A stretch of DNA of 64,000 bases, from assembly GCF_001485475.2 (NCBI RefSeq), contig NZ_DF977002.1, forward strand, positions 1-64,000, in the 5' to 3' direction. The translations under genes were made by a program, and so were the position numbers. The DNA is from Tepidanaerobacter syntrophicus (GTDB taxonomy: Bacteria; Bacillota; Thermosediminibacteria; Thermosediminibacterales; Tepidanaerobacteraceae). Below are positions 13,925-48,929 of this stretch, piece after piece. The notes under the pieces are model-generated. The model ran no database searches. It saw only the letters and a list, made by a program, of their open reading frames with translations, and was not told the DNA's origin. Positions within the stretch are counted from its first letter, which is position 1. Every line of letters begins with the position of its first letter.

Positions 13925-14115
13925 AACTTTATAAGGTATTTTCAAAGCTCTATAAAGTTTATGTTTCCTTCCTTGTTCATCGTACCCACTTTCGATTAAC
14001 TCTACTGGTGTTTGTTTGGCGCTCCAAAGGCTTAAATTCCCCAGTAACGTCTGGGTACACATCAATAGTTGCGTTTAATGCTGTACTATTGATTTACCGT
14101 AACGTTGCAGATTTA
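13925..14115 (-). ncRNA. Possible TnpB guide RNA (omega RNA) region at the element's right end
   Basis: In active IS200/IS605 and IS607 elements the 3' end of tnpB and the following right end encode the guide RNA. This segment keeps the usual layout: a hairpin pairing CAATAGT (tnpB end) with ACTATTG, followed by a GAATTTAAGCC block and an A/T-rich end. With TnpB lacking its RuvC-I part, any RNA would have no nuclease to guide. Existence of the RNA is inferred from family knowledge only. Confidence 0.35.
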
Positions 14116-35489: not shown

Positions 35490-36860
35490 CTATTCAGATG
35501 AAAACAAATTTAAATAGATTGCGTATTCAATTCGCTTTTTCTGGAGTTCGCAAGTAATATGATAGGGTTTTTTCATATCGCCGCAAATTAGTAAATTGTT
35601 AGCATTGCATCCTCCGCTGCAAAAGTATCTGGCCCAGCACTTGGAACATTCTTCTTTTGCAAAGACATGTGTATCCTTCAGTATATCCACAATTTTTTGG
35701 TCAAGCTTTCCGTCAGCCACATTTCCCATTAAAAACTCATCTTGCCCTACAAACTGGTGGCATGGGTATATGTCTCCCGAAGGAGTTACCGCAAGGTAAT
35801 CTCTGCCTGCTCCACAGGCCCATACTCTTTTATATACACATGGCCCATTATATATATCTATGTTAAAATGATAGAATTTAAAGGGTAATTTACCGGTTTT
35901 TTTACGGTTCATGTATTCCTTGGCAATTTCATCGTACTGTTTCCATAAAGTATCTAAATCTTTATCTTCTAAAAGATAATCCCCTTCTTTTCCAACAACC
36001 GGTTCGAGAGATATTTCACGAATCCCAAGGTTTGCAATATGAAAAACATCTTTTGCAAAATCAAGATTGTGCTTTGTAAAAGTACCTCTTACATAATATT
36101 CTTTGTTATCCTTTTCTCTAAGTTCCACAACCCTTTTTATATTAGGCACTATTTTATCATAACTGCCACTGCCGTCTGCCCTCACTCGAATAAAATCGTT
36201 TACTTCTTTTCTGCCATCAAGGCTTAAAACTATGTTGTCCATATTCTCATGGAGATATTCAATGGTTTCATCGTCTAGCAGCACTGCATTTGTTGTTATT
36301 GTGAAATGAAATCTTTTACCCCATGTTTTTTTGAGTATACGCGCATAAGAAATAACTTCTCTTATAGTGTCCATAGCAAGCAATGGCTCACCGCCAAAAA
36401 AGTCAACTTCCACATCTTCCATGTCTCCCGAATTTTCTGCAAGAAATTCTAGGGCTTTTTTACCTACTTCGCTGCTCATTATTTCTCTTTTGCCGTGATA
36501 ATCTCCCTTTGACGCAAAGCAATATTTGCAGCGTAAATTGCAGTCATGGGCAACGTTAAAACAAAGAGCTTTTACGTACTGCCTTGTATCTAGTTTGTCT
36601 AGAATAGCATTTGTATCCAAGTTGCTAAAAAGATATCCTTCGGTTTCCATTGCCTTAATTTCTTTTAAGGCTTCCTCTATCTCAAGCTTTGAATACTTGG
36701 TTTTAAGCTTTGCGATTATATCATTATTACTCAAAGTGTTATAATAATCCAGTACATCATACGTTATATTATCTACCTCAAAAATCGAGCCGCTGTTTAC
36801 ATCCAAGACTAGATTTTTGTCAAATACTCTAAATTTATGAATCTGGCCTGCCAAATACAT
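35490..36860 (-). CDS. scfB: SCIFF peptide maturase (radical SAM/SPASM thioether synthase)
   Basis: A 456-residue radical SAM enzyme of the TIGR03974 type, which forms Cys-to-Thr thioether bonds in the SCIFF precursor. Residues 1-95 form the peptide-binding (RRE-like) N-terminus, C107/C111/C114 (CNLRCKYC) bind the SAM cluster, VDFFGGEPLL follows, and the SPASM auxiliary Cys residues are in the last third (GPCVYKRVWACGAGRDYLAV, YPCHQF, CSKCWARYFCSGGCNANNL). The 45-residue precursor gene scfA is normally just upstream but I find no such frame in 36861-37038. ATG with AGGAGAGG. Confidence 0.9.
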   Translation of the reverse strand: MYLAGQIHKFRVFDKNLVLDVNSGSIFEVDNITYDVLDYYNTLSNNDIIAKLKTKYSKLEIEEALKEIKAMETEGYLFSNLDTNAILDKLDTRQYVKALCFNVAHDCNLRCKYCFASKGDYHGKREIMSSEVGKKALEFLAENSGDMEDVEVDFFGGEPLLAMDTIREVISYARILKKTWGKRFHFTITTNAVLLDDETIEYLHENMDNIVLSLDGRKEVNDFIRVRADGSGSYDKIVPNIKRVVELREKDNKEYYVRGTFTKHNLDFAKDVFHIANLGIREISLEPVVGKEGDYLLEDKDLDTLWKQYDEIAKEYMNRKKTGKLPFKFYHFNIDIYNGPCVYKRVWACGAGRDYLAVTPSGDIYPCHQFVGQDEFLMGNVADGKLDQKIVDILKDTHVFAKEECSKCWARYFCSGGCNANNLLICGDMKKPYHITCELQKKRIEYAIYLNLFSSE

Positions 36861-37038: not shown

Positions 37039-37839
37039 CTAATATTCTTTCTCTTTTTTAAATTCATTTGCATTTTTCTTAAATGAAACTGCTTTACCGC
37101 TTTTTGACATTATGGAATCATAACATGCATCAACTGTAATCCAGCCTTGATTTTGAAGATATACTTCATTCCATGCATGATACTCGCTTACGTCATTTTT
37201 ATAGCCCTTGACAAGTTTTGCCGGTATGTTAATACTCCTAAGCATTGCAGCATAAAGTGCCGCATAGTCAAAACATATACCTTTTTTTGTGGAAAGCGTT
37301 TCTTCCACTGAGGGTATGTAATTACTGTTAAGGCTTTTGACCTTATCTTTGTCATACTCAAAGTTTTTTACTATGTAATCATATATGGCATATGCTTTTT
37401 GCTCATCGGTGCTTAAGTTTTCTGAAAGCTTTGCAGCCATCTTAGCCGCTTCCCCGTTTTTATCCCAGTAAATCGGAGATGCTGACTGTAAAAAAGGCAA
37501 TTTTTCGTCTGCTAATTTAACCTCTATATCTTTGCTGTCTTTAGGCATGTACTTGTTGCTGTCAATATACTCCAACAGCGTCAGTTTGTATGTGCCTGAA
37601 CCCATCTGAAGCGGAAGTGTTTGCCCAACATTATTTACATCGTAAAAATAACTTACATTGTTCTTTTGAATCATTACCTTTATTTTTTTATCTTTCAGCG
37701 CCTGATTTACCTTTACTATTCCAAGTTCTGCATCGCTTAAATCAAATACATCTGCCTGGCTTGCAAGAGGTTTGTTTAAAATTGGAAGCATAAACAAAAA
37801 ACACATCAAAAGGCAGAGTATCCTCTTTAGTTTAAGCAA
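37039..37839 (-). CDS. Secreted transglutaminase-fold protein
   Basis: About 266 residues. A signal peptide (basic start, hydrophobic LCLLMCFLFMLPIL, cleavage probably near ASQA) precedes a domain of unknown fold and a transglutaminase/protease-like core with triad C189 (KKGICFDYA), H221 (EYHAWNEVY) and D237 (ITVDACYDS). Such proteins can be cysteine peptidases or cross-linkers; the sequence does not decide. The start is TTG 37839, 9 nt after GGAG: an ATG 11 codons earlier lies inside the riboswitch. It has its own promoter and a c-di-GMP-I riboswitch, and stands at the end of a surface-protein locus, so it may process or cross-link those proteins. Confidence 0.88.
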   Translation of the reverse strand: MLKLKRILCLLMCFLFMLPILNKPLASQADVFDLSDAELGIVKVNQALKDKKIKVMIQKNNVSYFYDVNNVGQTLPLQMGSGTYKLTLLEYIDSNKYMPKDSKDIEVKLADEKLPFLQSASPIYWDKNGEAAKMAAKLSENLSTDEQKAYAIYDYIVKNFEYDKDKVKSLNSNYIPSVEETLSTKKGICFDYAALYAAMLRSINIPAKLVKGYKNDVSEYHAWNEVYLQNQGWITVDACYDSIMSKSGKAVSFKKNANEFKKEKEY

Positions 37840-37848
37840 AATAAAACT

Positions 37849-37936
37849 CTCCTTTCGGTAGCTGGCTGCCATCTTGCGAAGGCCCTCTAGCTTTGCGTCC
37901 CCGCGTTTCCACGAGTTTGCCTTTATCGTTTGAAAG
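37849..37936 (-). promoter_or_regulatory. c-di-GMP-I (GEMM-I) riboswitch
   Basis: On the minus strand the conserved GEMM-I blocks occur in order: AAAGGCAAAC, a helix capped by a GAAA tetraloop (CTCGTG-GAAA-CGCGGG), GGACGCAAAGC, GGGCCT, then ATGGCAGCC and CTACCG closing the aptamer. The outer strands CTTTC (37932-37936) and GAAAG (37852-37856) can pair, and GAAAG overlaps the AAAGGAG Shine-Dalgarno of the following TTG. Ligand binding that stabilises this P1 helix would hide the site, so an OFF switch acting on translation is likely. The aptamer call is strong; the direction of control is inference. Confidence 0.92.
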
Positions 37937-37982
37937 TTTAACTAAAAAAAATTCTCTCGAATCAAATATTCAATTTAGGCTA

Positions 37983-38011
37983 ATTTTACCATAATTTACA
38001 TAGATTTTCAA
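37983..38011 (-). promoter_or_regulatory. Promoter of the riboswitch leader
   Basis: TTGAAA (38006-38011 as TTTCAA on the plus strand), 17-bp spacer, TAAAAT (37983-37988). It starts just past the sortase terminator, so the transglutaminase has a separate transcript. Confidence 0.8.
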
Positions 38012-38012
38012 G

Positions 38013-38043
38013 CACAAAAAAAACCAGGCTATATATTCTCACC
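38013..38043 (-). terminator. Sortase gene terminator
   Basis: A 7-bp stem AATCAGG with CCTGGTT, followed by a run of T on the minus strand. It overlaps the stop codon of the sortase gene. Confidence 0.75.
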
Positions 38044-38673
38044 TGATTCCAAAAGGTTAGCTCTTACTATTAATCTTGGGTAAGGTTTCCTGCTGTAATC
38101 GCACGTAATAAGAGTTAAGAGTTTTTTGTCCTTTTGCGGCAGCATCACCCAGGTATCTTCTGCCTCAACAAGAAATGTCTCGGATACTACATAAGTACAT
38201 GTTTTATCCTTTACTATAATCTCGATTTTATCTCCTTTTTTAAGTTCATTTAATCTGTTAAACTGCCTGCCGTAACTCCGGCTCCGATGTGCCGAAATGC
38301 AGTAGTTGCCTATATCTCCAGGATTACCCGTGCCGGATACTGAAGCTGCCGAAATATCAAGATTGGTTTTTGTTGCGCCTTTTAATATGGGCAAGAAAAT
38401 ATTTATTTTATCAATTTTTAGCATGCCTTCCATATGAGAGTTTATATATTCTATAAGATAATCATTTTTTTTGCTTGCAAGCGGCGCAGAAGTATCTTCT
38501 TTCGGTGCTTCGTCTGGATAATCTCCCAGATCTTCCATTGTCTTGTTCCATGTTTCAATAAGCTTTTTCTGTTGATAATCGAAGTAGGCTTCTTTTAGTT
38601 TCGGATAAGATATTAAAAATATGCCGGACAAAATTAGTATTACAGCAATAAACCTTTTCATAATCCTCACCAT
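38029..38673 (-). CDS. Sortase, probably class D
   Basis: A 214-residue membrane-anchored transpeptidase: N-terminal helix (FIAVILILSGIFLIS), linker, then a sortase barrel with H129 (ISAHRSRSYGRQF), C191 (LTLITCDYS) and R200 (KPYPRLIVRAN). Size and the single N-terminal anchor fit class D, often linked to sporulating Firmicutes. The likely substrate is the MPKTG protein 83 nt upstream. Start uncertain: the first ATG lacks a site, while ATG 38661 has GGTGAGG only 3 nt away. A strong hairpin directly ahead may limit its expression. Confidence 0.9.
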   Translation of the reverse strand: MVRIMKRFIAVILILSGIFLISYPKLKEAYFDYQQKKLIETWNKTMEDLGDYPDEAPKEDTSAPLASKKNDYLIEYINSHMEGMLKIDKINIFLPILKGATKTNLDISAASVSGTGNPGDIGNYCISAHRSRSYGRQFNRLNELKKGDKIEIIVKDKTCTYVVSETFLVEAEDTWVMLPQKDKKLLTLITCDYSRKPYPRLIVRANLLESGENI

Positions 38674-38755: not shown

Positions 38756-39580
38756 TCACTTTCTTCTTATGGTCAAGCTGGCTCCTGCAACAATCGCTAC
38801 AATGCCTGCTATATAATATATATATGGAAGTTCTTCGCCTGTTTTCGGCATTGCCGGTGCTCCCATAGGAACTTCTTCAATAGGTATTTCAATAGGGGCA
38901 GCTTCTTGAGGGGCCTCCTCAGGAATTTCTATTTCAGGAGGTATTGGCTCTCCTTCCGGAACGGGCTCCTCTTCCACTTCAACCGGAGGTTCTTCTATCG
39001 GTTCTTCTTTTTTACCGCCTCCGCCGCCTCCTCCTCCGCCGCTAGTTTCTGCGGTAAAAATCCATCTCACTTCTGCCGTAGCATTTTGAAACTCATTTCC
39101 TGTTTCAGGACCCGGAAGTTCAATAGTTGCAATTAGATTTCTACTTTCTGACGAGGCAAACCTTCCAAGGCTTATATTGCTGCTTATATCTCCAATACCA
39201 CCAGAACTTTCGCTGTTTGCTCCGGTAGCAGGACCCCGGTAAATAACTTCACCTTGATATGAAATAGTAAGTCTTAGTTGTTTTAACAAATCGGCGCCTG
39301 TAGGCTCATCTCCGATTCTTTCAGCGCGCATATAGAGAGTGAAGGGCCTGCTGTAATTATTTGTTATCTTCAGCGTTCGTGTTATTGCATCGCCCGGATT
39401 CATGCGCCCTAGGTCAAAAAGTTTTCCGCCTTCCGGCACTAAGACAAGTCCTGAAGAATCGCCTCTAAGTTCCACATCGTCGGCAGCAAAAACTCCTTCT
39501 GCACCATACATCGTAAAAACACTAGCTGCAAAAAACGAGACCAAAAGCACTATGAGATATTTTTTTATATTTTTATTCAC
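38756..39580 (-). CDS. MPKTG-type cell-wall anchored protein
   Basis: About 274 residues. Signal peptide (YLIVLLVSFFAASVFTMYGAEGVFA), a beta-rich TasA-neighbour-type domain (about 35-175, with the MNPGDAITRTLKITNNYSRPF pattern), a run of nine Gly, an acidic Pro/Glu stalk, and a C-terminal sorting signal MPKTG, hydrophobic helix and RRK tail. The first sorting residue is Met instead of Leu. Two GTG starts are possible; I choose 39580, with GGAGG 9 nt upstream. Likely a base or linker protein that the sortase attaches to peptidoglycan. Confidence 0.87.
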   Translation of the reverse strand: MNKNIKKYLIVLLVSFFAASVFTMYGAEGVFAADDVELRGDSSGLVLVPEGGKLFDLGRMNPGDAITRTLKITNNYSRPFTLYMRAERIGDEPTGADLLKQLRLTISYQGEVIYRGPATGANSESSGGIGDISSNISLGRFASSESRNLIATIELPGPETGNEFQNATAEVRWIFTAETSGGGGGGGGGKKEEPIEEPPVEVEEEPVPEGEPIPPEIEIPEEAPQEAAPIEIPIEEVPMGAPAMPKTGEELPYIYYIAGIVAIVAGASLTIRRK

Positions 39581-39634
39581 CTTCACTACCCTCCTTTGTC
39601 GGGGGGTGAATTTTATTCACCTCTAAGGTGGTGG

Positions 39635-39687: not shown

Positions 39688-40278
39688 TTATTCAGGTGTG
39701 CTTTCGCTCCATGCTTCAACGCCGTCTGGCAAAGAGGTAATTCCGAACGCATCTTTATACGCCTCATGAGATGCTTGAACGGCTTCAGCTTCGACGTCAA
39801 CTTTAAGGGTTTTTCCTTGATATTCATTGCCTGTAGTTGGTCCTGCAATTGTCACACTGTCCAAAAGTAATTCTGTTTCAACGCCCTGATTCATTATCTT
39901 GTAGTAATAGTAGTACCCGCCAGAGGCGATCCATTTATCAGAATTGATTATATTTAGTGTAACATTTGTTGTTGAAAGTGTATTATCTGGTATAAACTCT
40001 TCTCCGTCAAGGGCGCCCCAAACCGGCGTTAATTTGACCCTGACATATGTTCCTTTTGAACCTGTGCTTTTAATACTTACATCCTTATTTGTTGTATCTC
40101 CGGGGTTCCAATTTGTTATGTCTTGAAAGTCATGCTCATTAATTTCAATTGCAACAGTTCCTGCTGTAAATTTATTATCGGCTGTCTGACTGTCCGTAAA
40201 CCAAGCCATAGTTCCGCCTACCACGAGAAGAGCAGCCAGTGAAAATACTAGTAAACCTATTAACAAATTCTTTCTCAT
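39688..40278 (-). CDS. TasA/camelysin-family secreted protein, copy 2
   Basis: A 196-residue protein of the TasA/CalY (M73) family, whose members form extracellular biofilm fibres. SipW-type signal peptide (LLIGLLVFSLAALLVVGGTMAWFTD) and the family core FTAGTVAIEI, NWNPGD, VSIKSTGSKGTYVRVKLTPVW. A tyrosine-rich GGYYYYYKIMN strand and a C-terminal AEAVQASHEAYKDAFG block follow. ATG with GGAGG. It is a close tandem copy of the gene 89 nt upstream, differing mainly in the middle. Confidence 0.92.
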   Translation of the reverse strand: MRKNLLIGLLVFSLAALLVVGGTMAWFTDSQTADNKFTAGTVAIEINEHDFQDITNWNPGDTTNKDVSIKSTGSKGTYVRVKLTPVWGALDGEEFIPDNTLSTTNVTLNIINSDKWIASGGYYYYYKIMNQGVETELLLDSVTIAGPTTGNEYQGKTLKVDVEAEAVQASHEAYKDAFGITSLPDGVEAWSESTPE

Positions 40279-40367: not shown

Positions 40368-40937
40368 CTATTCTGTCCACGGCTCTATACCCGTCGGCAT
40401 ATTACTTAGCCCCCATGCATCTTTATATGCTTCATGAGATGCCTGAACAGCTTCAGCTTTGACATTTACGGTAAGTTTTTTGCCTTGATAATCATCTCCT
40501 GTCAAACTTCCTATAATCTCAACTTTTGAAAGAAGTGGTTCGGTAACAGCTCCTGCGGCTAATATATGTTTGTAATAGTACCATCCGTCTCCGCCGTCTA
40601 CCCAATGCGTTCCTAACTCTCCATCAGCAAAGATAAGATTTACATTGTTTATTGGAAGATTTCCCTCCCATACAGGATTTATACTTACTCTTACATATGT
40701 CCGTTTTGATCCTAGGCTCTCAACCTTCACTTCTTTGTCGTATATGTCGCCGGGATTTACATTTTCTTTTACCACAGGATTTGTTTGGCCATTTTCTAGT
40801 ATTTGAATTTTTACTGTTCCTGCAGTAAATTTATTACTAGCTTCTTTTGTATCCGTAAACCAAGCCATGGTTCCGCCTACCACTAGGAGGGCGACAAGTG
40901 AAAATACAAGCAGGCCTATGAGAAAACTTTTTTTCAT
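40368..40937 (-). CDS. TasA/camelysin-family secreted protein, copy 1
   Basis: A 189-residue paralogue of the next gene. Shared signal peptide (FLIGLLVFSLVALLVVGGTMAWFTD), FTAGTVKIQI, NVNPGDIYDKEVKVESLGSKRTYVRVSINPVW and the same AEAVQASHEAYKDAWG end. The middle segment has diverged (WVDGGDGWYYYKHILAAG). Processed presumably by the SipW-type peptidase encoded just upstream, 107 nt away. ATG with AGGAGG. Copy 1 and copy 2 could be major and minor fibre subunits. Confidence 0.92.
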   Translation of the reverse strand: MKKSFLIGLLVFSLVALLVVGGTMAWFTDTKEASNKFTAGTVKIQILENGQTNPVVKENVNPGDIYDKEVKVESLGSKRTYVRVSINPVWEGNLPINNVNLIFADGELGTHWVDGGDGWYYYKHILAAGAVTEPLLSKVEIIGSLTGDDYQGKKLTVNVKAEAVQASHEAYKDAWGLSNMPTGIEPWTE

Positions 40938-41044: not shown

Positions 41045-41641
41045 CTATGCTTCTTCTTTTGTAATCTCCCCCTCGTTTATTTTCCGTTCGCTCTTATTTT
41101 TGTCCCCTTTTCTTTCACTTACTATGATTTTCGCCAGTTCTACTGCGAGAAAGAGGGTCCATGTAGCAAGTAAAATCAGAATTCCGCCTCTTGATCTTGC
41201 AAAGTAAAATGCGTAACCGATGTAGGGTATTGTAAAAACAACTTTTCCTATTAAGTGATTGGCGCTTACCGGCATTGGGTCTTCGACTTCATTGGCATCG
41301 CCCTTTGTCTTGAAAAAGAGCCCGTCCTTTTCATATATATCGATTACCCGGTGTGTGGTAGTATTTTCACCGTCCTGCTTTCCTCTAAAAGTAATAACAT
41401 CTTGAGCCTTTATTTCTTTTGGACCTGCCGGTTTTACTATCACAAGGCTTCCTGTTTTGATAGTGGGATTCATGCTTCCGCTCATAACTATATACATTTG
41501 GTAGCCTCCTATCGACGGAGCCTTTCCTGTAATTTTGCTCTGCACTACAAAAATCAGGAGCACTATAACCGCGCAGGTAAGCAGAATCAATATTGTATTT
41601 GATAGAAAACCTTTTACTTTGCAAACCGTGTTCTTTTTCAT
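41045..41641 (-). CDS. sipW: Signal peptidase I, SipW (ER) type
   Basis: A 198-residue signal peptidase with two membrane helices (about 13-33 and 150-172). It is of the ER type: catalytic S56 in MSGSMNPT and H97 in TTTHRVI in place of the usual Lys. SipW of B. subtilis is required to process TasA, and the gene order here (sipW then two tasA-like genes) supports the same role. A long charged C-terminal tail follows the second helix. Starts 12 nt after the vWA gene. Confidence 0.93.
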   Translation of the reverse strand: MKKNTVCKVKGFLSNTILILLTCAVIVLLIFVVQSKITGKAPSIGGYQMYIVMSGSMNPTIKTGSLVIVKPAGPKEIKAQDVITFRGKQDGENTTTHRVIDIYEKDGLFFKTKGDANEVEDPMPVSANHLIGKVVFTIPYIGYAFYFARSRGGILILLATWTLFLAVELAKIIVSERKGDKNKSERKINEGEITKEEA

Positions 41642-41653
41642 GCTGCCATCTCT

Positions 41654-44600
41654 TTACTCTTCAGATTCTTCTGTTGATGCTAAAAGTTTTTCTTTATCAG
41701 GTAAAACAGCTTTCAGATCCATCGAGCTCAGTAATACTTCTGCACTGCTCTTTTGTCCTGCAGTGCTTGAACCGCTGTAAGACACTGCAATTGTAAAGGA
41801 GTTGTTTTTTTCTGTCTCGTCTCTAAACCAGGAATCATTGACTTTTTTGTTGGTTGCTGTTACAGTTACTGCAACATTATTTAAAATCATATCTCTTGTA
41901 ATTGTAAAACTTTGGTTTGTTAAATTTGTTAAACTGTAATCCATAGGAACTGTTTCGCTTGCAGTATAGTTTCCCGGCCACAATCCGTCGATTATCTGTT
42001 GATCATTGTGTTTTACAAGTGTATTCCATTTTTTCCCTGAAGGGCCATTCACATGTATAGCGAACTCTTTTACAGTATCTATTCCATAATCACCGTTTTC
42101 AACAAACTTCTTTACAATTATCTTTCCCTTTTTTACTGTAACTGATATGCTATCAGTCGCTTTGCATCCATTAGCATCTGTTATTTGAATTGTATAGACA
42201 GCATCCTCTTCCGGCACAAGTGAAGGATTTGCACTCGTTGAAGTCCATGTAGAATCAGCGCTGCTTGTCCAAAGGTATGTGAATGGCGAATAACCATACA
42301 CCTGCAAGTTTTGGCCTATATTAATGGTATCTCCCACAACTATTATAGAGTCAGGCCCGGCTTCCACACCTATTACATTTACTGTTGGTATCGGGAAAAT
42401 TTTTTCTACATTGGGGGTACCGTTTATATCAGTATAGTGAAGCACAGCGCTTGTATTTGTCGGTAAATTATTGCCCATCACCCCGTCTTTTGCTTTAATC
42501 TTATAGCTTAACTCAGCTAATGTAGTTATTGTGCCGGGACTCCAGGTTATTGTCCGTGTTGACGGATTGTATGTTACTGTAGCATTTGGATTTGTCGTAA
42601 TGCTTCCGTCAACCAGCTCAAAGTTCTCATTAATTACATCGGTTACTACAGCATCGATTGCTGAATATCCGAGTAGTCCGGATATTGTATCGTAAATCCC
42701 TGATAAATCCGGTGCTCCGCTAGCTTCGTAATAACCGGAGTTCTGAGCCCATTGAAGAGTTTCCCTTGCAACAGTTCTGCTTTGGGTAGGCACTTGACTT
42801 ATAATCCCAACTGTAAAGACCATTGCCATGCTCCAACAACCCTGTCCTGCCGTATATGCCGCTATGGTATGCACATTGTGCCCTGTAGGTTCATTTGGTC
42901 CTGATGGATTTCCTATACTAGCTGTTGCCACACCATCCGTAAGCAAGACTATTACTTTATTAGCGTTTTGTCGGCCGTTGGTTTGTAAAATGCTTTTGGC
43001 TTTTAAAAATCCTGCTTCTATATTTGTTCCACCATTTGCAGTAATTCCGTCAATTGCATTTTTTACCGATGTAGCATTGCTTGAAAGCCCAATATTTTGT
43101 GTCGCATTAGAAGCCGAGCCTAGATCTCCAAGATACAAAGGACCTGCAAAAGAAACTACTGAAATGCGATTATTGCTGTCAGCTAAAATTGTGTCTGTAA
43201 ATTCTTTCGCGGCTTGTTTGGCATAGTAAAGTACAGTATGGCTGCCTGATACTCTATCATTCATACTGCCTGATCTATCTATTACTAAAACTACATCTAC
43301 AGGAGCCGGAGCAGGTGTGCCTGTTATCTGAAGTTTTACAGTGTAATTTCTGCACGGTGTAGCAGTAGTTGCTGTTTTGTTAACTTGTATCGTATCAGTG
43401 CCTGATGTGGCTGCTACAAGTTCCGGCATTATGACTGATTTAGGAGCCCCATAATCTAGAACGGTATCAGTTTGCAAACTCCTAAATGCTTTCAGCGAAG
43501 TTGCTGAATCCATGCCTGCGGGCCGTGGTAGTAACTCAAGAAACGGATCGTTTTCTATTGAGACTTCATAAGAAGTTGAAGCTTCTACAAGATTTGCTTC
43601 AAACTGGCATTGTGCTTTTGCCTGAATTACAAGTGACGACTCAACAAAGTATGGATCTATGGGAATTTCACCATCAATATGATATTCTCCGCCTGGTGTA
43701 AGTTCTGATATTGTCTCATTTGAGCTTTTAAGGCTGCTGTTTACATCCACTGATATATTTTGAAGTTGAACATCACCTGTATTTAAAACTACAACATGGT
43801 AATTAATGCTTTCGCCTACATTATAAAAATCATTGTCTGTAGAAATTGAGATACTTAAAGCGGGATTGTAAACTACTGGTGGAATAATTGGCAATTCTTC
43901 TACAGGCACTAAAGGATCTAATACTTCCTCAGGCAGCACAACTTCTGGTGGTATGACTTCTCCACCTTCTTCGGCAGGTATCTCTCCCTCGGGAGATTCC
44001 GGTTCTTGGGGCTGTCCGTCAGGATTTTCTGGAGTTGTCGGATCAGTAGGTACGGTTTCCTCGTTAGAACCTGTCTCTCCTGTGTCTTCAGAAGGTTCAC
44101 CATTTGTATCTTCTTCAGTGGTTGCCGGCTCTTCCGGCGCTGTTTCATCTTCAGGATTAGTAACCTGTCCCGGAAGTTCAGTATCTGGATCTGTAGGTTC
44201 TTCTGGTAGATCTTCATCAGGTGTTTGATCTGACGGACCTTCTATCTCGGGAGAACCACCTTCTTCTGAAGGATTTGCCTCTTGATCATCAGGTAGTATT
44301 TCATCTTCAGGATTAGTAACTTGTCCTGGGATTTCGGTATCCGGATTTGTAGGTTCTTCCGGTTGAGCCTCATCAGGTGTTTGATCTGACGGACCTTCCG
44401 GCTGCACTTCTTCATCACCTGCTACCGGGTCCTCTGTTTCGGGAGAACCGCCTTCTTCAGAATTACCCGTGCCCTGATCTTGAGTTATTTCACCGGGAAC
44501 TTCAGAACTTACAGAATCTATTGACTGCGTATCCGTATTTACCAATTCGTTAATTGAAGGTGTAGCATCTGTGCCAGATTCATCGGCAGAAACTACAGTA

Positions 44601-44668
44601 ATTGCCGGTGTGAAGATAAGCAATATCATAAGAATTGTGGCTAAAACTTTCTTTGAGGTACTTATCAT
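41654..44668 (-). CDS. Secreted von Willebrand factor A domain protein
   Basis: A 1004-residue exported protein. Signal peptide 1-28; acidic Pro/Glu/Thr-rich stalk 30-265 with two copies of a 33-residue unit (92-124, 144-176); CARDB-like domain 268-372; vWA domain about 456-665 with a complete MIDAS (D464-x-S466-x-S468, T548, D578); beta region with SEDS-unrelated repeats to 760; PKD/Ig-like domain 765-848; SpaA/DUF5979-like domain 849-940. No LPXTG or C-terminal membrane helix, so retention on the surface must be non-covalent or through partners. ATG with GGAGG. Likely an adhesin. Confidence 0.88.
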   Translation of the reverse strand: MISTSKKVLATILMILLIFTPAITVVSADESGTDATPSINELVNTDTQSIDSVSSEVPGEITQDQGTGNSEEGGSPETEDPVAGDEEVQPEGPSDQTPDEAQPEEPTNPDTEIPGQVTNPEDEILPDDQEANPSEEGGSPEIEGPSDQTPDEDLPEEPTDPDTELPGQVTNPEDETAPEEPATTEEDTNGEPSEDTGETGSNEETVPTDPTTPENPDGQPQEPESPEGEIPAEEGGEVIPPEVVLPEEVLDPLVPVEELPIIPPVVYNPALSISISTDNDFYNVGESINYHVVVLNTGDVQLQNISVDVNSSLKSSNETISELTPGGEYHIDGEIPIDPYFVESSLVIQAKAQCQFEANLVEASTSYEVSIENDPFLELLPRPAGMDSATSLKAFRSLQTDTVLDYGAPKSVIMPELVAATSGTDTIQVNKTATTATPCRNYTVKLQITGTPAPAPVDVVLVIDRSGSMNDRVSGSHTVLYYAKQAAKEFTDTILADSNNRISVVSFAGPLYLGDLGSASNATQNIGLSSNATSVKNAIDGITANGGTNIEAGFLKAKSILQTNGRQNANKVIVLLTDGVATASIGNPSGPNEPTGHNVHTIAAYTAGQGCWSMAMVFTVGIISQVPTQSRTVARETLQWAQNSGYYEASGAPDLSGIYDTISGLLGYSAIDAVVTDVINENFELVDGSITTNPNATVTYNPSTRTITWSPGTITTLAELSYKIKAKDGVMGNNLPTNTSAVLHYTDINGTPNVEKIFPIPTVNVIGVEAGPDSIIVVGDTINIGQNLQVYGYSPFTYLWTSSADSTWTSTSANPSLVPEEDAVYTIQITDANGCKATDSISVTVKKGKIIVKKFVENGDYGIDTVKEFAIHVNGPSGKKWNTLVKHNDQQIIDGLWPGNYTASETVPMDYSLTNLTNQSFTITRDMILNNVAVTVTATNKKVNDSWFRDETEKNNSFTIAVSYSGSSTAGQKSSAEVLLSSMDLKAVLPDKEKLLASTEESEE
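44141..44395 (-). repeat. Two 99-bp in-frame repeats in the vWA gene
   Basis: Positions 44141-44239 and 44297-44395 are about 85-90% identical and encode the repeated unit with EGPSDQTPDE, PDTE and PGQVTNPEDE. They form part of the stalk. Such repeats can change number by slippage or recombination. Confidence 0.8.
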
Positions 44669-45502: not shown

Positions 45503-46723
45503 TTATTGGATAAAAGATTCTTTGGCACCTACGGGCTGAAATGAAATTTCCAGAGAAATTTGCGGCGTAAGGAGCCTTTTTTTAAATTCTTCATTAATCC
45601 TATTTCCTATATTTTGGAGATTTTCTTCCGCTATATCAGTAAGCAAAACAACTACTCGAGATTTGTTCCACCAGCTAAATACATCTCCTTTGCGTAGAAA
45701 CCGGGCCAAGATTTCGTGTAAGATATTTTTTGCTACATCTATATCTTTGTCAGAACAATTACTGCCAGTTTCAATAATTGAAATCAAGCCTAAAAATTCT
45801 TTATCCCCGGATCTAAGTATCTTGCGGCGCTCAAAGTTATATATGGCTTTGAAATAATCCGGCTCGCAAAATAGCGCTCCGTTAATAACATCTTCATTTA
45901 TTATGGTATAGCTTATCTGTGTAAGATTCTTTTCAGGGTCATCTTCGCTGCCGGCAGTAATTTTGCGGTATATGGCTTTAAGCTCAGGCGTTGGTCTTAC
46001 AGACATTTCTTTATACAGTCTTGCAGTTATATAATTATAATGATTCAAGGCATTTTTATACTCATGTAATTCGATTAGTGCATCGAGAAAGTATACATGG
46101 AATGATTCTTCGAAAGGTTCATAATTGACTACTCTCTCATATATGTCTATTATATCCAGATATTCATTATTTTCCTTTAACAACTCAAAAAGTCTTAACA
46201 CGGACTGGACGAAAATACGATGATAGCGGCTCCGAAAAAGAAACGCCCATTCGCTATAGGGATTTTCTGCAAGAAACTCTCCCTTATATATATCTATTGC
46301 TTCTAAGTAAGCCTTTTTCGCCTTTTCAGGATTATCCACTCTTAAACTATCAGCTTCTTTTACCTTTTCCTCGAACTGAACAAAATCAATTGTGCAAGAA
46401 TCGCCGGGATCGAATATATAAAATCCGTTTTCGAAAATTATATCAAAGTAGTGCTTCGTCTCCTCGCTATTTATAAGTCCGACAGACTCAAGGCCTTTTC
46501 TAAGACGAAATATTTGAGTTCTAAGGGCATTTTTCGGATCTATAAAATCTGAATCAGGCCATAAACTCTCTATTATATCTTCCGGAACTAATTTCTTATT
46601 GTAATAAGTAATAAAATACTTTAACAATTCCAGATTCTTATTGTTTCGTTTGCTTTTTTTTAAAATTGACTCATCGTCAAGTTTTATGTCGAAATTACCA
46701 AATGTATTAATCTTTATAGTCAA
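45503..46723 (-). CDS. BTAD transcriptional regulator with degenerate GGDEF-like domain
   Basis: A 406-residue protein. Residues 1-105 are an OmpR/SARP-type winged helix (LRTQIFRLRKGLE), 110-255 a BTAD tetratricopeptide-like domain (DIYKGEFLAENPYSEWA, YEPFEESFHVYFLDAL). Residues 290-397 align by eye with a GGDEF domain: helix KAIYNFERRK, RFLRKGDVFSWW, then NKSRV where GGDEF should be, then VVLL. The catalytic motif is lost but R344-x-x-D347 lies exactly 5 residues before it, as in a c-di-GMP inhibitory site. TTG start with GGGGGGTG. It follows the GGDEF-HD-GYP gene by 73 nt. The GGDEF-like call is my inference. Confidence 0.8.
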   Translation of the reverse strand: MTIKINTFGNFDIKLDDESILKKSKRNNKNLELLKYFITYYNKKLVPEDIIESLWPDSDFIDPKNALRTQIFRLRKGLESVGLINSEETKHYFDIIFENGFYIFDPGDSCTIDFVQFEEKVKEADSLRVDNPEKAKKAYLEAIDIYKGEFLAENPYSEWAFLFRSRYHRIFVQSVLRLFELLKENNEYLDIIDIYERVVNYEPFEESFHVYFLDALIELHEYKNALNHYNYITARLYKEMSVRPTPELKAIYRKITAGSEDDPEKNLTQISYTIINEDVINGALFCEPDYFKAIYNFERRKILRSGDKEFLGLISIIETGSNCSDKDIDVAKNILHEILARFLRKGDVFSWWNKSRVVVLLTDIAEENLQNIGNRINEEFKKRLLTPQISLEISFQPVGAKESFIQ

Positions 46724-46796: not shown

Positions 46797-48929
46797 TTAA
46801 AAGTGATACTTTATAAGAACTTTTTCTATAAAAACAGCTACAAGATCAGGATCATATTCCTTTCCCGCACCCTTCTTAAGTTCTTCCACTGCTTCATTTT
46901 GCGACAATGTTCTTGGGTAAGGTTTATAATTGGTCATAAAATCGTATGCATCAGCAATTGCTGCAATTCTTGCTTTCAGTGGTATTTCTTCGCCCTTTAA
47001 ACCCTTTGGGTATCCGGAACCATCCCAGTTTTCGTGATGCGCAAGTACGTATTGTGCAATTTCTGAAAAATCACCTACGCAGCTCAATATTCGATAGCCT
47101 ATTTCTGGGTGCCGTCTCATTTCTGCTATTTCTTCCTCTGTCAATGGACCGGTTTTATTTATAATTGATTTGTCTATTGCAACTTTGCCAATATCGTGAA
47201 GGAGGCCTATTGTTTTAAGCTCACTTAACTCTCTTGAGCTTAAAAGTATCTCCTTTCCTATGGCTACGCATAGATCGCTTACTCGTTTCGAATGTTTTTC
47301 TTCTAAAGGATGAGCTTCATATAAAGTTTTAACAATTGTTGAAATAGTCATATTTCGCATGCTAGAACTTTCGAACAACTTATTTTTATACATAAGATTT
47401 TCCGCTCTTTTTATGATTTCATTTATGTCTTCTTCTGCGGATTTCTTAACTTCCCACCCGCAAGAAATAGATAAATTTATTGAGCCTACCTTGGTATTGG
47501 CAGCTGCAATTACTATTCGGTCGATGACTTGCTTTACACCTTCTTCTGAAGTTTTTGGAAGCAAGACCGCAAATTCGTCACCGCCAATTCTAGCAATTAT
47601 ATCATCTCTTCTACAGGAAAGTCTTAAAGCATCTGCCGCTTTTTTTAGTATTTCATCTCCAAATTCATGTCCAAAGGCATCATTTGCCAGCTTTAGACCG
47701 TTTATATCTGCCATAATTACAGCAATAGGCAAATTTCTATCAGTATCAAGCCTGCGCAACTCCTCTTCAAAAAATCTGCGGTTATAAAGGCCGGTTAATT
47801 GATCATGGTAGCTTAAATACTCTATTGATTTTAATGTAGCTTCGAGAAGCTCTTTTTCATTTATCAGCATTTCTTCATTTCTCTTGCGAATAATTCGAAT
47901 CCATGCATTACTAAACAAGATAGTAAGACTTGACTCATCATATTTGGTATAATCTGAGTCTTTGTTTGCAACGGCTGTCACCATAACAATTTTACCTTTG
48001 TCAAATATCGGCACCGATAAGTATCTGGATAGATTGACATAATTGTTTTGAAAATCAAGATTGTCGAAACAATTTATAACTATCGATTGTTTTTCCTTTA
48101 TAACATTTGCCCAGAAGCCTGCCTTTTCAAAATCTACTTTAATATTATTTTTTTCTAATTTGCACTCGTTCAATATGTTGTCAGAAATACAAGCAAGTTC
48201 AATTTCATTACTGTCCTCATTATAAATGAAAGCATATGCCAATTTGCTTTCTGTTATCTTTAGCGCCTCATTTAATGTGAAATAAATTAATTCCTCTATG
48301 CTATTAAAATCTTGCTGGAGTATTTTTATTAAGCTTTCGCTCAGCTCAATGTTCTGTCTTGCAAGTTGTTCAGCTTTTTTTCGTATTATGGATAAACCCA
48401 AATGTTTAAGGTAAAATCTAATCCTATTATGTTTGCTGAAATTTTTGCCTTTTGGCATCAGAAAAATTACATTTCCCAAAAGAATGCCATCTTTTGTGAT
48501 ATTTGCAACAGCTATCTGGCCTATGTCAAGTCCGTTCATCATTTTTGAAATCTCAGACTGTATAAATTCTTCGCCAAGCAGTTCGTCAAGTGAAGAGAAA
48601 ATAATTATATCATCCGAAATTTGTTCGCTTTTGCATTTTGTGTAGTCAGTAAGCCTTCTGCAAAACAGTGTACAGTACTCCGAAAGCGATCTAGCCTCAC
48701 TTATGTTAAAGTTCGGGCCGCATGCAACTTTAATCACGAATTTTTCGCCGGAAACATCAAGCAAATTAACAAATACGCAGTTAGCTTTTGATACTAATAA
48801 AAGGGCATTTGCGACACTTTGATAGTCCATATTTTCTAACATTTGTAAGAACTCAAGGTCCAATTCGAAAAAATCTTTTGGTACTTTTTTAGGCGGGCCA
48901 TTAACCCTCTCTGCGAAATTATCTATCAT
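46797..48929 (-). CDS. GAF-GAF-GGDEF-HD-GYP c-di-GMP turnover protein
   Basis: A 710-residue soluble protein with both synthetic and hydrolytic c-di-GMP domains. Two GAF-like sensor regions (about 35-185 and 205-345), a GGDEF domain (375-490) with intact GGDEF at 449-453 and RxxD at 440-443, and an HD-GYP domain (530-705) with H578/D579 and the GYP motif at 639-641. So it can in principle make and degrade c-di-GMP depending on a GAF ligand. ATG with AGGAGG. Probably cotranscribed with the BTAD regulator. Confidence 0.93.
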   Translation of the reverse strand: MIDNFAERVNGPPKKVPKDFFELDLEFLQMLENMDYQSVANALLLVSKANCVFVNLLDVSGEKFVIKVACGPNFNISEARSLSEYCTLFCRRLTDYTKCKSEQISDDIIIFSSLDELLGEEFIQSEISKMMNGLDIGQIAVANITKDGILLGNVIFLMPKGKNFSKHNRIRFYLKHLGLSIIRKKAEQLARQNIELSESLIKILQQDFNSIEELIYFTLNEALKITESKLAYAFIYNEDSNEIELACISDNILNECKLEKNNIKVDFEKAGFWANVIKEKQSIVINCFDNLDFQNNYVNLSRYLSVPIFDKGKIVMVTAVANKDSDYTKYDESSLTILFSNAWIRIIRKRNEEMLINEKELLEATLKSIEYLSYHDQLTGLYNRRFFEEELRRLDTDRNLPIAVIMADINGLKLANDAFGHEFGDEILKKAADALRLSCRRDDIIARIGGDEFAVLLPKTSEEGVKQVIDRIVIAAANTKVGSINLSISCGWEVKKSAEEDINEIIKRAENLMYKNKLFESSSMRNMTISTIVKTLYEAHPLEEKHSKRVSDLCVAIGKEILLSSRELSELKTIGLLHDIGKVAIDKSIINKTGPLTEEEIAEMRRHPEIGYRILSCVGDFSEIAQYVLAHHENWDGSGYPKGLKGEEIPLKARIAAIADAYDFMTNYKPYPRTLSQNEAVEELKKGAGKEYDPDLVAVFIEKVLIKYHF

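Follow-up and report, generated by a model that had tools for sequence, protein, structure and literature searches.

How a secreted enzyme encoded beside a set of surface-protein genes comes under the control of c-di-GMP, and in which direction, is the question raised by one locus of Tepidanaerobacter syntrophicus, contained in a stretch of 64,000 nucleotides that was analyzed as a whole (hereinafter, the window). The explanation that best covers the evidence taken together, and in which we have considerable confidence, is that a riboswitch, acting through a helix (P0) that would lock the Shine-Dalgarno sequence (SD), turns the gene of this transglutaminase-fold enzyme off when c-di-GMP is bound. 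Computation yields the elements of the argument, namely, the aptamer, its fusion to the SD, the conserved P0, opposite expression platforms, gene context and the fold of the enzyme. The leader and the gene comprise the following features:

38011-37983, minus strand: promoter of the transglutaminase gene, TTGAAA-17-TAAAAT (10/12 matches, TG before the -10 element)
37939-37932, minus strand: 5' strand of P0, AAACUUUC, extending aptamer helix P1 (MFE fold; own-versus-swapped test)
37853-37930, minus strand: c-di-GMP-I aptamer (Rfam RF03167, 65.8 bits; RF01051, 69.3 bits)
37855-37849, minus strand: Shine-Dalgarno sequence AAAGGAG, fused to the 3' end of the aptamer
37851-37844, minus strand: 3' strand of P0, GAGAGUUU, including GAG of the SD (MFE fold; own-versus-swapped test)
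37039-37839, minus strand: secreted transglutaminase-fold enzyme, 266 aa, TTG start (PF01841, 6.1e-29, obtained on the slightly longer frame 37039-37842; triad; structure model)

In the Rfam cmscan search of the whole window, the aptamer matches RF03167 (c-di-GMP-I-GGC) above the gathering threshold of 59 bits, with an E-value of 2.6e-13 (1.2e-15 on a 301-base stretch), and in a genome-wide search RF01051 aligns at 37854-37931, above its threshold of 35 bits, bearing out the GEMM-I aptamer that the original prediction had read from the letters. Searches with both models detected no second c-di-GMP-I site in the 2.43 Mb genome. The positions equivalent to G20, A47 and C92 in Vc2 numbering, which we take to be those that contact c-di-GMP, are occupied in the window aptamer by G, A and C; across 135 model-aligned aptamers, the G and the A are invariant and the C is present in 133. 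Because these presumed contact nucleotides are canonical, the RF03167 label is nominal and the idea of a variant ligand finds no support; in a comparison aimed at the subfamily-naming nucleotides, the RF03167 consensus reads GCGAAGC, compared to GCAAAGC in the window aptamer. At the sequence level, the riboswitch identity of the element is certain, and c-di-GMP is the ligand that we infer. The genome contains 7 GGDEF matches and thus c-di-GMP exists in the host. Elsewhere in the window, there is a RAGATH-18 RNA (13969-14030, minus strand, 53.4 bits).

The promoter that had been proposed upstream of the aptamer is recovered: 0.8 elements of this quality are expected in shuffles, but it is visible in 5/5 close orthologues. 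Translation of the enzyme starts at TTG 37839, and the ATG at 37872, which lies within the aptamer, is not the start. The proposed overlap with the SD is seen as well, the SD being continuous with the 3' end of the aptamer.

The enzyme gene is located downstream of a sortase/LPXTG/TasA-like operon. This surface-protein neighborhood had been noticed in the original prediction, and domain search resolves it as follows:

38016-38048, minus strand: candidate intrinsic terminator for the pilus operon, with arms AATCAGG...CCTGGTT and a U-run, overlapping the sortase stop codon (sequence inspection; unlisted by the terminator scan, whose loop limit it exceeds)
38029-38673, minus strand: sortase (PF04203; nearest to class C/D, under the cut-offs for those)
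38756-39586, minus strand: LPXTG-type (MPKTG) surface protein (TIGR01167; alignment)
39688-40278, minus strand: BsaA/TasA-type SipW-dependent matrix protein (TIGR04090, above cut-off)
40368-40937, minus strand: second BsaA/TasA-type protein (TIGR04090, above cut-off)
41045-41641, minus strand: SipW-type signal peptidase (TIGR02228, above cut-off; NF046067, 1.2e-40, below cut-off)
41654-44668, minus strand: vWA/GBS104-like tip pilin-type protein (domain search)
46797-48929, minus strand: GAF-GGDEF-HD protein, candidate c-di-GMP turnover enzyme beside the module (domain search)

The pilus operon of the window is preceded by a BTAD-type regulator (45503-46723) and the GAF-GGDEF-HD protein, and by eye a similar regulator is found ahead of the pilus operon in two family genomes (G004 and G005); the SCIFF peptide maturase encoded downstream of the enzyme gene (35490-36860, minus strand; TIGR03974, 2e-180) is also, by eye, a neighbor in these two genomes. 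No riboswitch was detected on the window pilus operon, even with filters off. Among 13 genomes of the family, five encode a close orthologue of the enzyme, and six, including all of these five, encode a sortase together with an LPXTG protein (Fisher p 0.005). The sixth of these genomes (G009, 68% complete) has the pilus operon, with no enzyme or aptamer found beside it. Four loci of family genomes (L013, L022, L028 and L029) contain a lower-scoring c-di-GMP-I-type aptamer (44-50 bits) that in the latter three precedes, by eye, a chemoreceptor-like gene.

The association of the aptamer with the enzyme extends far beyond this family. A profile of five orthologues retrieved 443 relatives, the best 80 of which, all from named genomes, served as the locus set; the covariance model used to survey these loci was derived from 29 family aptamers (a first model, R1, that contained P2-type pairs only, was set aside). 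Among these best 80 of 443, 67 loci, spanning Clostridia and Bacillaceae/Paenibacillaceae, have a c-di-GMP-I aptamer in the 700 nt that precede the enzyme gene, and 38 have at least two aptamers in tandem; the closest named relatives of the enzyme come from Tepidanaerobacter sp. EBM-38 and GT38. When 37 of these aptamer-bearing loci (14 + 11 + 12) were searched independently with Rfam, c-di-GMP-I was again detected ahead of the enzyme gene in every one. In three of the 67 loci (L048, L081 and L095), the aptamer had seemed distant only because the protein carries an extra N-terminal part; its distance from the true start is 13-15 nt. Of the 13 loci without an aptamer at the enzyme, L099 has tandem aptamers at a second enzyme copy just upstream, and in L084 and L112 aptamers precede other genes; no aptamer was found before any enzyme copy in 12 of the best 80 of 443.

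The start codon is located 7-15 nt past the aptamer in 64 of the 66 testable enzyme-proximal cases (the named loci, the window and two family loci; the exceptions are L069 and L088) and, consequently, the SD is fused to the aptamer 3' end. P0 forms between the 20 nt ahead of the aptamer and the segment behind it that contains the SD. For 60 non-redundant aptamers of the 65 enzyme-proximal ones, the mean pairing energy of P0 is -10.46 kcal/mol with their own flanks versus -7.84 kcal/mol with swapped flanks, and none of 5000 permutations reaches the own value. This signal is obtained in Clostridia (0/5000) and, weaker, in Bacillales (26/5000), with kinship handled by near-duplicate removal and the split in two groups, so that shared ancestry is removed only partly. 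Pairing of the leader farther upstream with the P0 5' strand gives 22/5000, compared to 4489/5000 for the control pairing of this leader with the SD; the upstream leader appears to behave as an antisequestor would. A distinct tetraloop receptor in the enzyme-type aptamers was also considered and, with mixed results, the idea was dropped. Where aptamers are stacked, the upstream members show the P0 signal as well (0/5000 overall; 1/5000 in Clostridia and 586/5000 in Bacillales, i.e. Clostridia carry the signal), and a U-run begins 7-11 nt after the upstream aptamer in 37 of 41 cases; this combination reads as a P1-extension terminator.

In the window, the favored register in folding pairs AAACUUUC (37939-37932) with GAGAGUUU (37851-37844), with 8 pairs, two of them G-C, the weakest P0 among five close orthologues; the pairing of CTTTC (37936-37932) with GAAAG that had been proposed earlier is possible but is not the register that folding prefers. 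The proposed OFF direction fares better among the relatives, where P1 extends onto the SD, than in the folding of the window itself. The unpaired state of the window SD is 0.53 in the free leader and 0.60 with the aptamer fold forced, that is, accessibility is not reduced, and in the other 65 leaders the direction of the change is mixed, the forced pairs often being energetically poor. This lack of SD closure in simple folding, along with the occurrence of ON-type c-di-GMP-I switches in the same loci, would fit an ON switch, in which the ligand rearranges the aptamer 3' end and frees the SD. We consider such a switch quite improbable at the enzyme gene, where the SD belongs to the P1 extension and where pairing of the aptamer end with downstream sequence is matched by 341 of 5000 permutations, whereas the P1 extension is matched by none. 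A different route to the OFF state, through transcription or mRNA stability, would have P0 and the following U-rich tract GAGAGUUUUAUUUU form a weak terminator rather than a lock on the SD, similar to the layout of P0 and U-run in the upstream tandem members and compatible with the six or more U residues at which some downstream members end. However, the U-tract of the window is interrupted, its P0 is poor in G-C pairs and the proximity of the start codon favors translation; we regard this route as unlikely. The OFF direction of the enzyme switch, with P0 closing over the SD, is the likely one.

Under the mechanism that we favor, translation of the secreted enzyme would be governed by one c-di-GMP-I riboswitch, transcribed from a promoter of its own. 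Binding of c-di-GMP would allow P1 to form, and P0 would extend P1 using the nucleotides ahead of the aptamer and those of the SD and spacer, such that the ribosome-binding site is taken up in a duplex and the gene is off. When no ligand is bound, the P0 5' strand could pair with the upstream leader, leaving the SD open and the enzyme on. In the relatives, an upstream aptamer often doubles the unit, and its P0 stem with the U-run would constitute a transcriptional OFF lock.

The remaining 22 aptamers in the surveyed loci (best 80 of 443) behave differently. They show no P0 signal (1036/5000); instead, each aptamer end goes with its own downstream sequence (0/5000), pairing with hairpins or terminators there; strong competing terminators are found in 12 of these 22 as against 5 of the 65 enzyme-proximal aptamers (Fisher p 1.2e-5). 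The strict pattern for competing SD hairpins caught 1 of the 22, missing TasA-type ones that folding shows. The genes that follow mostly encode surface proteins (LPXTG, SpaA, DUF11/DUF7507, vWA/MucBP and TasA/camelysin), and for a few of these aptamers (e.g. L054 and L084) the downstream gene is ambiguous or the sequence ends. For example, in G004 and G005, the operon has a second riboswitch that separates two TasA-like genes and whose end folds into a hairpin with the SD, so that the ligand should open the SD. Two aptamers (L049:954 and L076:308) have OFF-like ends despite their position upstream of surface-protein genes, and in both cases class II aptamers stand in between. Among 50 loci scanned with Rfam, c-di-GMP-II aptamers precede adhesin genes in three (L049, L076 and L086). 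The arrangement in the former two is a mixed-class stack, with a c-di-GMP-I aptamer and then two adjacent c-di-GMP-II aptamers ahead of an LPXTG gene:

L049, 954-1359, and L076, 308-789: mixed-class stack (Geosporobacter ferrireducens, Anaerovirgula multivorans)

Across the Rfam-scanned loci, the RF03167 label falls mainly on enzyme-type OFF aptamers and RF01051 mainly on adhesin-type ones, with exceptions both ways.

Since the P0 signal is at the enzyme and downstream pairing is elsewhere, the best reading is OFF for the enzyme and, at part of the loci, ON for the adhesins. Adhesin genes in the vicinity of the enzyme gene often have their own c-di-GMP riboswitches, many of them with a terminator or SD hairpin that competes with the aptamer and hence probably of the ON type. 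Taken together, the leaders suggest a widespread arrangement in which the enzyme is turned off by c-di-GMP, which at a minority of loci appears to turn adhesins on. The combined layout is limited to this minority of related loci and is absent from the window.

The Cys-His-Asp core attributed to the enzyme in the original prediction is firmly in place: C189, H221 and D237 are invariant in the alignment of 53 homologues, in addition to the PF01841 match. In a structure search with the AlphaFold model (pLDDT 94.1), the top neighbor is Streptococcus pyogenes TglA (9crn; Z 14.7, rmsd 2.6, 136 aligned, 15% identity), for which no literature mentioning the name was found, followed by a putative cysteine protease from Cytophaga (Z 14.5). 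LapG (4fgo) aligns with a VIA-align Z of 11.3 (rmsd 3.1, 127 aligned), comparable to animal transglutaminases, and many transglutaminases score alike; the fold is therefore compatible with cutting or cross-linking alike. PeiW, PeiP and PNGase are further transglutaminase-like folds in this search, and a common fold shows no function. LapG-type peptidases have a sequence profile of their own, which the enzyme does not match; Pfam gives PF01841 and PF04473 only (E up to 0.001). The reaction and the substrate of the enzyme are guesses at this point. It could be a true transglutaminase that cross-links and strengthens fibers, or an unrelated wall or peptide hydrolase, its regulation having nothing to do with release. 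The match of the fold to transglutaminases and TglA equals or exceeds that to LapG, and one diverged pilus locus lacks the enzyme. We take this to be a substantial possibility that falls somewhat short of even. c-di-GMP is generally linked to sessility, and production of a cross-linker at low c-di-GMP would contradict this usual logic; a further point against this possibility is that, of the best 80 of 443 loci, 43 have a sortase within about 6 kb and 29 an LPXTG protein, counts that come with no random-locus baseline. Release from the surface is a fair guess, and the intact fibers that the original prediction expected at high c-di-GMP are a hypothesis. With the gene off when the riboswitch is ligand-bound, the enzyme is expected at low c-di-GMP, and a cell leaving the surface would then remodel or release sortase-anchored or TasA-like surface proteins.

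A broader proposal, which we make tentatively and consider possible albeit doubtful, is a Bacillota-wide sortase/LPXTG or TasA-like adhesin module that includes a secreted LapG-fold enzyme, kept off by one c-di-GMP-I riboswitch or by a stack of two (the first locking through a terminator, the second through the SD). The adhesins of such a module would be turned on by c-di-GMP riboswitches laid out the opposite way, and the whole would parallel the LapD/LapG and PPEP-1 release systems while relying on RNA alone. Should this be correct, the inverse riboswitch control of adhesins and their remover in Clostridioides difficile would extend to much of Clostridia and Paenibacillaceae, through an enzyme of another fold, providing many harmless species in which to test c-di-GMP-controlled surface release. 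The distinction between P1 extension and competing terminator would serve as a sequence rule to read the direction of c-di-GMP-I switches.

The link between the aptamer and transglutaminase-like genes is already known because COG1305 genes with tandem c-di-GMP-I riboswitches in Bacillota occupy one row of an enrichment table (PMC12452182); this row was the only literature found on the pair. Aptamer class, broad gene class and phylum are shared with the present loci, and the tandem arrangement is enriched there. The accessible text covers tandem pairs only, whereas the window unit is single and SD-fused, and it does not treat the direction, the platform or the adjoining adhesins of the COG1305 pair. 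Within the literature searched, four points seem to be new, namely, the opposite switch layouts of enzyme and adhesins, the conservation of the SD-fused platform in different orders, the stacking of locks and the LapG-like fold.

The closest functional parallel is the C. difficile system, in which PPEP-1 is under a class I OFF switch and the adhesins CD2831 and CD3246 are under class II ON switches (PMC11477304, PMC6447587). The comparison made in the original prediction is apt: a secreted enzyme is under a class I switch, here probably OFF, sortase-anchored adhesins appear to be inversely regulated by ON-type riboswitches at a minority of related loci, and in three related loci (L049, L076 and L086) an LPXTG adhesin is also preceded by class II aptamers. 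However, PPEP-1 is a metalloprotease, whereas the window enzyme has a Cys-His-Asp transglutaminase fold, and the C. difficile class I switches are described as transcriptional, whereas the window platform looks translational.

The S. pyogenes protein TglA, the best structural neighbor, is likewise a Gram-positive transglutaminase-like protein, at the low identity given above. The LapG/LapD/LapA system of Pseudomonas and Legionella shares with the present one a transglutaminase-fold Cys-His-Asp enzyme that is expected to be active as c-di-GMP falls, but LapG belongs to a different sequence family and is controlled post-translationally by LapD, whereas the enzyme of the window would be controlled by RNA.
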